From Campylobacterales bacterium (GTDB lineage: Bacteria > Campylobacterota > Campylobacteria > Campylobacterales > Sulfurospirillaceae): a stretch of 64,000 nt of DNA. The notes beneath the pieces are model-generated. The model saw only the letters and a program-made list of their open reading frames with translations, made no database searches and was not told the origin of the DNA. The stretch spans positions 1 through 64,000 of the forward strand of contig JAJRPV010000004.1 in NCBI GenBank assembly GCA_024280575.1. Direction: 5' to 3'. The translations under genes were made by a program, and so were the position numbers. How positions within the stretch are numbered: position 1 is the first letter of the stretch; each line of letters begins with the position of its first letter. Shown in pieces: positions 14,929-27,360 of the stretch.

Positions 14929-15017
14929 CTATAAAATTTCCTTTACTATCGTTTCTTAGAGGCAAATCCTCCCGTTGGTCTGAGCCTCACAAAACGATAG
15001 TAAAGGAAATTGTATAG
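14929..15017. repeat. fixed-loop/variable-arm inverted-repeat element, copy 1
   Basis: 20-bp perfect arms AATTTCCTTTACTATCGTTT (14935-14954) / AAACGATAGTAAAGGAAATT (14992-15011), extendable to 26 bp with one mismatch; 37-nt loop cttagaggcaaatcctcccgttggtctgagcctcaca shared with 27304-27340. Confidence 0.85.
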
Positions 15018-25894: not shown

Positions 25895-27279
25895 ATGGGC
25901 AAAACAGTATTTGATTTGTATAAGATTGGTATCGGACCCTCAAGTTCCCATACGGTAGGACCTATGGTAATCGCAAAAAAGTTTGTTGATTTAGCCTATA
26001 AAAGAGAGTTGTTAGATAGTTGTAGCAGAGTTAAAATTGAATTGTTTGGTTCGCTTGGCGCAACAGGAAGAGGGCATGGAAGTGATGTTGCCGTAGTACA
26101 AGGTCTGATTGGAAATTTACCCGAAACCATTGACATAAAAAGAGCAAGAAAATATTTTTCCGATGTTATAATAAATAAAAATATAAACCTTTTGGATATA
26201 AAAAAATTAACTTTGATTTTGAAAATGATTTAACACTTTATCCAAGCAAATTTTTACAATTTCACCCTAATGGCATAAAGCTCTACATGTATGGCTTGGA
26301 TGAAAAACTACTTTTGAAAAAAACATATTATTCTGTTGGTGGTGGGGCTGTTTTGGATGAAGATGAGGTGGGTAAATCAAGAGATAAAAATAAAAGAGTT
26401 TTGCCTTTTGATTTCAGTTCTGCTAAGGAGCTTTTGCAAAAATGTAAAGACAATTCTTTTAAAATAAGTACTCTCATGATGGAAAACGAGAAGAGTATGC
26501 GAAGCAGTGATGAGGTTAAAAAGTCTTTATTGAATATTTGGGCAACTATGCAAGAGAGTATTCTTAGTGGTTGTAAAAGCACAGGAAAATTGCCAATTAC
26601 AGGCATGAGAAAAAGAGCAAGTGAGATTTATAACAAATTGAAAAAAAGAGACAGTTTTCCTATGGTAGATCCGTTGGAAGTGATGGATTGGGTGGATCTT
26701 TGGGCATTGGCGGTAAATGAAGAAAATGCCTGCGGCAACAGAATCGTAACAGCTCCCACAAATGGAGCAGCAGGTATTTTGCCGGCAGTGATACAGTATA
26801 TGAATAAATTTTTAGGCTCATCACTGAAAGATTTCCACGAAGACAGAGTTATAAATTTTTTACTGACAGCCGGTGCCATAGGTTTGTTATATCAAAGAAA
26901 CGCTTCTATAAGTGGTGCAGCTGTTGGCTGCCAGGGTGAAGTAGGAGTAGCCTGTTCTATGGCAGCAGCCGGGCTGGCAGAAATTATGGGTGGAACGATA
27001 GAGCAAGTAGAAAATGCGGCCGAAATAGGCATGGAGCACAACTTGGGGCTTACATGTGATCCAGTCGGCGGATTGGTCCAAATTCCCTGCATAGAGCGAA
27101 ATGCTATGGCAGCTATGAAAGCTATAAATGCTGCCAGAATGGCACTAAATGGGGATGGAAAACATTTTGTTTCATTGGACAGTGTGATTAAAACAATGCT
27201 TGAAACAGGAAAAGATATGATGAATAAATACAAAGAAACTTCACTCGGTGGCTTGGCTGTAAACATAGTCGAATGTTAG
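25895..27279 (+). pseudogene. sdaA: L-serine ammonia-lyase, one frameshift
   Basis: 25895..26233 (FDLYKIGIGPSSSHTVGPM) and 26287..27279 ([20 protein letters not shown]) are two halves; frame changes at the A7 tract 26200-26206, A8 would restore [28 protein letters not shown]. Confidence 0.85.
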
Positions 27280-27283
27280 ATTC

Positions 27284-27360
27284 ATCTTCTATTTAAAGCC
27301 TTGCTTAGAGGAAAATCCTTCCGTTGGTCTGAGCCTCACACAAGGCTTTAAATAGAAGAT
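27284..27360. repeat. fixed-loop/variable-arm inverted-repeat element, copy 2
   Basis: 20-bp perfect arms ATCTTCTATTTAAAGCCTTG / CAAGGCTTTAAATAGAAGAT around 37-nt loop cttagaggaaaatccttccgttggtctgagcctcaca. Confidence 0.85.

Follow-up and report, generated by a model that had tools for sequence, protein, structure and literature searches.

A stretch of 64 kb from the genome of a Campylobacterales bacterium (the window, taken at its full length) contains two hairpins that a sequence-only reading had described as a fixed loop closed by variable arms, and the question is what sort of element would keep its loop and change its stem. The description was confirmed by the present analysis, with two copies of the element at 14935–15011 and 27284–27360 (Table 1). 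For copy 1, this interval is the match of the covariance model; allowing one mismatch, the perfect 20-bp arms can be extended to 14929–15017. The 30-nt core of the loop occurs twice in the window at up to three mismatches, and not once in 100 dinucleotide shuffles. The folding z-scores of the two hairpins range from -6.6 to -8.1 relative to shuffles. A covariance model built from members of the family, including both window copies, found only these two places in the window, with E-values of 8e-17 for copy 1 and 4e-14 for copy 2, the minus strand giving the best match for both. As stated in the earlier reading, neither is an ordinary terminator: the U-tract that marks an intrinsic terminator was sought at both feet and on both strands of each window hairpin, and none was found. 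Beside copy 2, the L-serine dehydratase frame (25895–27279) is split into two ORFs of 112 and 330 residues, by a frameshift or an assembly error.

Table 1. Position of the two hairpins and of their parts in the 64-kb window.
Feature	Position	Strand	Remark
Copy 1, whole element, upstream of leuC	14929..15017	- (folded strand)	81.3 bits on minus versus 35.2 on plus
Copy 1, left arm AATTTCCTTTACTATCGTTT	14935..14954		complements 14992-15011 perfectly
Copy 1, conserved apex, GAGGCTCAGACCAACGGGAGGATTTGCCTC on the folded strand	14959..14988	-	nine copies in own genome at up to 3 mismatches; near-invariant columns
Copy 1, right arm AAACGATAGTAAAGGAAATT	14992..15011		perfect 20-bp pairing with left arm
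Copy 2, whole element, between sdaA and tsaD	27284..27360	-	70.1 bits on minus
Copy 2, left arm ATCTTCTATTTAAAGCCTTG	27284..27303		complements 27341-27360 perfectly
Copy 2, conserved apex	27308..27337	-	two differences from copy 1
Copy 2, right arm CAAGGCTTTAAATAGAAGAT	27341..27360		perfect 20-bp pairing with left arm

The element belongs to a family of dispersed, intergenic single hairpins of about 77 nt, confined to the Campylobacterales as far as sampled. The core is present nine times in the window's own genome with up to three mismatches, and the reversed control pattern is absent. With one mismatch, the pattern CAAATCCTCCNNNNGGTCTGAG matched 37 of the 400 genomes sampled from the order and 14 of the 87 genera; the control gave zero throughout. 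A search of genome contigs returned 57 stretches, all of them Campylobacterota-type MAGs by title, including Sulfurimonas and Sulfurospirillum. The covariance model R1 (55 sequences, 77 columns) gave 10 matches in the own genome and 3, 43, 9, 7, 10, 13, 11, 13 and 0 in nine other genomes of the window's genus, a few of these counts taking in one hairpin matched on both strands. Counts in Sulfurimonas-like genomes were 19, 15, 13, 8, 5, 3 and 1, plus several zeros. Among 41 genomes spread over the phylum, the window's genus alone was matched. No copy was found with the core patterns in viral contigs, or by a similarity search of plasmids and phages. The sampled genomes are largely fragmentary MAGs, and copy numbers in MAGs may be underestimates. 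Several MAG contigs of genomes G003 and G008 terminate some 150 bp or less from a copy, as if the repeat broke the assembly. The majority of copies are single. Closely spaced pairs, mostly inverted, occur far above the expectation from copy number, and inverted pairs about 85–250 bp apart are present in G336, G279, G059, G175, G195, G205 and G003.

A total of 177 distinct copies were collected and compared. The conserved apex, written for the folded strand, is GAGG-CU-CAGACC-NNNN-GGAGGAUUUG-Y-CCUC. It is almost fixed, CTCAGAC and AGGATT being invariant or nearly so around NNNN, in which the fourth base is G in 169 of the 177 copies, and the first and third are mostly A..C, G..A or A..A. The stem is constituted differently. 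In 90 copies with a gap-free layout, read on the minus strand, all four Watson-Crick types are encountered at nearly every stem pair. In alignment A1, two-sided changes occur at each of the 20 outer pairs, 96.1% of the cells are paired versus 63.8% after shuffling, and the covariation amounts to 0.81, compared with 0.17 after shuffling and 0.14–0.21 when the partners are slid. Covariation beyond shuffled and slid controls is what distinguishes a structured RNA or single-stranded DNA hairpin, and its presence at all 20 pairs upholds the earlier proposal of a structure whose stem needs only complementarity. The arrangement proposed from the two window copies, conserved inside and variable but self-complementary outside, likewise extends to the 177 copies, with their fixed apex and covarying 20-bp stem. 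The arms seem unrelated between most copies, yet they share a consensus within a genus. That they would be complementary and specific to each locus was correct as to complementarity (96% of cells paired); they are not arbitrary, however, as many copies have in common a loose consensus, TAGACTTCTT..AAAACTATTTCTTAG, and depart from it by compensated changes. The two alternative hairpins that had been drawn inside the loop are replaced by a conserved fold on the opposite strand, made of GAGG/CCTC and CAGACC/GG-A-TTTG.

A pair that forms an A.C mismatch on one strand of a hairpin forms a G.T wobble on the complementary strand, and the strand under selection can therefore be told from the mismatches. 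Over 110 distinct arm sets, there are 67 wobbles on the minus strand versus 16 on the plus strand (p = 1e-8; 42 versus 10 copies by sign), and the bias is the same in all three clades (36:9, 38:11 and 26:14). In one subclass, the columns beside the apex stem are G.A, G.A and A.G; on the plus strand, the same columns would read C.T. The apex contains a fixed G.U (55 of 55). The fold of the minus strand is the stabler one in 134 of 167 copies, the fixed apex contributing part of the difference. From the wobble bias, the G.A internal loops, the fixed G.U and the stabler folds, the functional strand is most likely the minus strand, that is the complement of the loop as it was first written, in the form of RNA or single-stranded DNA; this presumes no hidden mutational asymmetry. 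Simple deamination of C to T on the exposed co-directional strand would bias the counts the other way, an argument for selection though no proof of it. Contrary to folding of the minus strand, one of its apex pairs is disrupted by the CGAATCC variant found in several Sulfurimonas-like copies.

The turnover of the stem was followed at orthologous loci. In 57 comparisons, which share copies and are therefore not independent, 318 stem pairs have changed on both sides versus 59 on one side, and the cores differ little; they are nearly unchanged at loci where the coding flanks are 75–90% identical. In 12 of these comparisons, the flanks match but the loops point in opposite directions; some of the 12 involve loci with two inverted copies. 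Clear inversions of a single copy are seen at leuC (L001/L121), L015/L022 and L023/L208. On two contigs of the MAG QNZT (L054 and L067), the ends of pdxJ and of a ppx-like gene are about 99–100% identical, the whole intergenic stretch including the arms differs and the apex is identical; the contigs may represent alleles of two strains, between which the intergenic region was replaced, or the assembly may be at fault.

Template switching is reported to homogenise the arms of inverted repeats and invert their spacers (PMC8604942), and to maintain RNA hairpins (PMC8794818). It would account for both the double changes and the inversion. One may then ask whether the family could be a mutational by-product, consisting of quasipalindromes perfected by template switching alone with no selection of the structure. 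The two-sided changes and the loop inversions are the reported signature of the process, and both arm homogenisation and spacer inversion, as in the published template-switched quasipalindromes (PMC8604942, PMC8794818), are found here at orthologous sites. Those quasipalindromes are isolated mutation sites, in contrast to an element with one apex across genera and strand-specific selection. A by-product is very improbable, as it leaves unexplained a single apex sequence in 14 genera, the strand-specific wobble, the G.A internal loops and the near-unchanged core beside more divergent coding flanks, and as it would predict an equally conserved apex devoid of stem at equal frequency. Since neither the strand-specific wobble nor the fixed apex is explained by template switching, selection is needed too.

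Comparison of relatives with and without the hairpin bears on the origin of the arms. The sequence-only reading had considered that a core inserts and then gains its arms by inverted copying of the flank, in which case alleles with one arm were to be looked for upstream of leuC. There, the element is present in three genomes of the genus, with arms that are all different and one copy inverted, and the other genomes are without it; in some of the latter, the adjacent gene is truncated or missing too. Upstream of leuC in G003 (L131 and L137), a different inverted-repeat insertion, ATTACTCCACCAAATAATATCC .. GGATATTGTTTGGTGGAGTAAT, occupies the place that in other genomes is vacant or taken by the hairpin. 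Comparison of close relatives revealed empty sites at L024/L318, L184/L320 and L190/L323, where both arms are missing. At L204/L324 and L189/L319, only the outer ends of the arms are left, joined as a short palindrome; these leftovers are interpreted as sites that have lost the apex, a polarity deduced from the comparison. No target duplication is visible in three comparisons of empty and filled sites, with flanks 83–97% alike and AT-rich. Presence and absence suggest new insertions, some of which could be explained by loss at the same loci. Although the apparent lack of relation between the arms of most copies would suit inverted copying of the flank, this origin is hardly credible given the empty alleles with neither arm, the scars retaining the outer ends of both arms, the arm consensus within a genus, the paired changes in both arms and the hybrid copy at L026, which has not rebuilt its arms.

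Cores without complementary arms, which had been held to be fatal to the idea of variable arms, do occur. They are rare (7 of 159 copies) and are apparently products of decay, duplication or insertion, comprising the L026 hybrid, tandem duplications and a copy with an enlarged loop. The L026 hybrid (G008) is a single copy with non-complementary arms, and its counterpart in G003 (L012) consists of two inverted copies, as expected from loop inversion followed by recombination between cores. At L192, L260, L264 and related loci (G003, G007 and G008), tandem duplications of about 97 bp comprise the core, the right arm and a TACC..TTTGACCTTGG tail, the second unit having no matching left arm. The second copy of L036 (plus strand, around 1560–1670) has intact arms and about 36 extra bases inside the conserved loop.

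The copies are intergenic, with one doubtful overlap as judged by simple ORF calls. Many are found in short gaps between co-directional genes, near a stop codon, a position which, together with the long perfect stem, would suit a hairpin that processes or stabilises transcripts between co-transcribed genes (RNase III site, bidirectional terminator or protector of the 3'-end). Such a role is improbable. No U-tract is present, a fixed apex would not be required, and copies are least often located between convergent genes (7 of 97), which is where one would expect terminators. The core strand is in the sense orientation in 62 and antisense in 27 of the cases with co-directional neighbours (clades summed); the folded strand is therefore mostly antisense to the neighbouring genes, which also speaks against processing. 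A search for a recurrent neighbour beside the copies returned orthologous loci and broad families, ABC transporters among them, and no transposase.

In three complete Sulfurimonas-like genomes, 25 of the 28 copies have the same orientation as the gene downstream. The origin of replication of these genomes, with dnaA at the first bases, was confirmed by GC skew, and 34 of 42 copies have their folded strand running against the fork (p = 7e-5). Replication direction was considered as the driver and looks secondary, as two discordant cases follow the gene and not the fork. About ten loci upstream of genes keep their copies across several Sulfurimonas-like species; the genes, read from their N-termini, include mogA, a molybdopterin oxidoreductase, hemN, queD, mqnC and thiG, among others. 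A near-unchanged core on a turned-over stem at an orthologous Sulfurimonas-like locus implies, on this comparative basis, a probable function there. The element may accordingly be thought of as controlling the downstream gene in cis, as an operator, a promoter-proximal cruciform or a leader just before the start codon. This is possible but doubtful. It agrees with the co-orientation, including the two cases that follow the gene, with the retention of the same loci and an almost unchanged core in several species, and with a TATA-like tendency at the right foot, which is restricted to the Sulfurimonas-like set and weak as a profile. It is at odds with the copies of the window's genus, which are polymorphic and inverted at orthologous sites, and with the great diversity of the genes that would be served; a leader RNA, moreover, would predict wobbles on the plus strand, whereas the minus strand is favoured.

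The element was compared with known systems. Rfam returned only tRNA for the whole window at the gathering threshold, and single copies at a relaxed threshold gave matches that were all below gathering, the weak ones being to long-hairpin families. Cis-regulatory and structured RNAs of the Rfam type have in common with the element conserved loop motifs, a covarying stem and an internal loop; they differ from it in that its folded strand is mostly antisense to its neighbours and matches no family. No earlier description of the family was found in the open-licence literature. The definition of a MITE includes conserved ends and a target duplication, whereas the outer arm columns are the most variable ones here, with a weak consensus at the feet only, and the centre is fixed; the earlier opinion that the element is neither an IS nor a classical MITE was justified. 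The integron attC boxes RYYYAAC and GTTRRRY were sought near the feet, and both together are found in none of the 177 copies.

REP sequences of the GTAG type are associated with a Y1 (RAYT) transposase. This enzyme was rejected as the mobiliser, as PF01797 is absent from the copy-rich genomes G059, G279, G336 and G195 and present in copy-less ones. Near the 5' foot of the folded strand, the REP tag GTAG is found in 9% of copies versus 5% after shuffling, and CGTC in 1–2%. Like REP sequences (GTAG/CGTC; BIME and REPIN doublets), the copies are dispersed intergenic hairpins of patchy copy number, with GT pairs in the stem and one folded strand, and closely spaced inverted doublets are also found here. 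REP stems measure 5–13 bp, with GT pairs noted in them (PMC3733652); the stem of the present element differs by its length of about 20 bp or more, with 20 outer pairs covarying in A1, and by being free on a fixed apex. By its stem length, its terminal sequence and the missing connection to a transposase, the element falls outside the REP superfamily. The ERIC sequence is one long stem-loop (PMC2267715), and the element resembles long intergenic palindromes of this type in being a single, non-autonomous hairpin between genes. The best reading is that of a new REP-like dispersed palindromic repeat with a recognised apex, the factor that reads the apex being putative.

The mechanism that we favour, at about an even chance, is that of a mobile-like hairpin with a factor-read apex and a generic stem, shaped by selection and template switching, and with about ten host-fixed copies in a Sulfurimonas-like lineage. 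A trans-acting factor would recognise the apex on any suitable stem when the minus strand is single, as RNA or single-stranded DNA, and this recognition would allow the unit to spread and persist in the manner of REP-type non-autonomous hairpins. The perfection of the stem would be kept by selection, helped by template switching during replication, which would copy one arm onto the other and flip the spacer. About ten copies would by now have become stable fixtures upstream of genes in one Sulfurimonas-like lineage, presumably with a role for the host. Consistent with this mechanism are the patchy copy counts, the fixed apex with its covarying stem, the strand-specific wobble, the presence or absence in sister genomes with scars of apex deletion, the in-place loop inversion, the two-sided stem changes, the inverted pairs and the vertical retention at Sulfurimonas-like loci. 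Against it, neither a recognising protein nor a mobiliser was found (Y1 is absent from three copy-rich genomes and no neighbour recurs), comparison of sites revealed no target duplication, one apex pair is disrupted in the CGAATCC variant, and the mostly antisense position of the folded strand is awkward for a plain RNA. A bolder formulation, rather unlikely, is that the family represents a genetic element of a new class, in which the apex and the pairing alone would be inherited as its identity, with stem turnover by template switching, and whose single-stranded apex would be read by a factor first for spread and later for the control of about ten Sulfurimonas-like genes.

With 177 copies and dozens of orthologous pairs, the family offers a replicated natural experiment on how long stems stay perfectly paired, in which loop inversion and double changes can be observed side by side at individual loci. 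Few structured elements are known from this phylum, and to these is now added a strand-specific hairpin family absent from the catalogues; its conserved apex could serve directly to fish for the putative protein that would read it.
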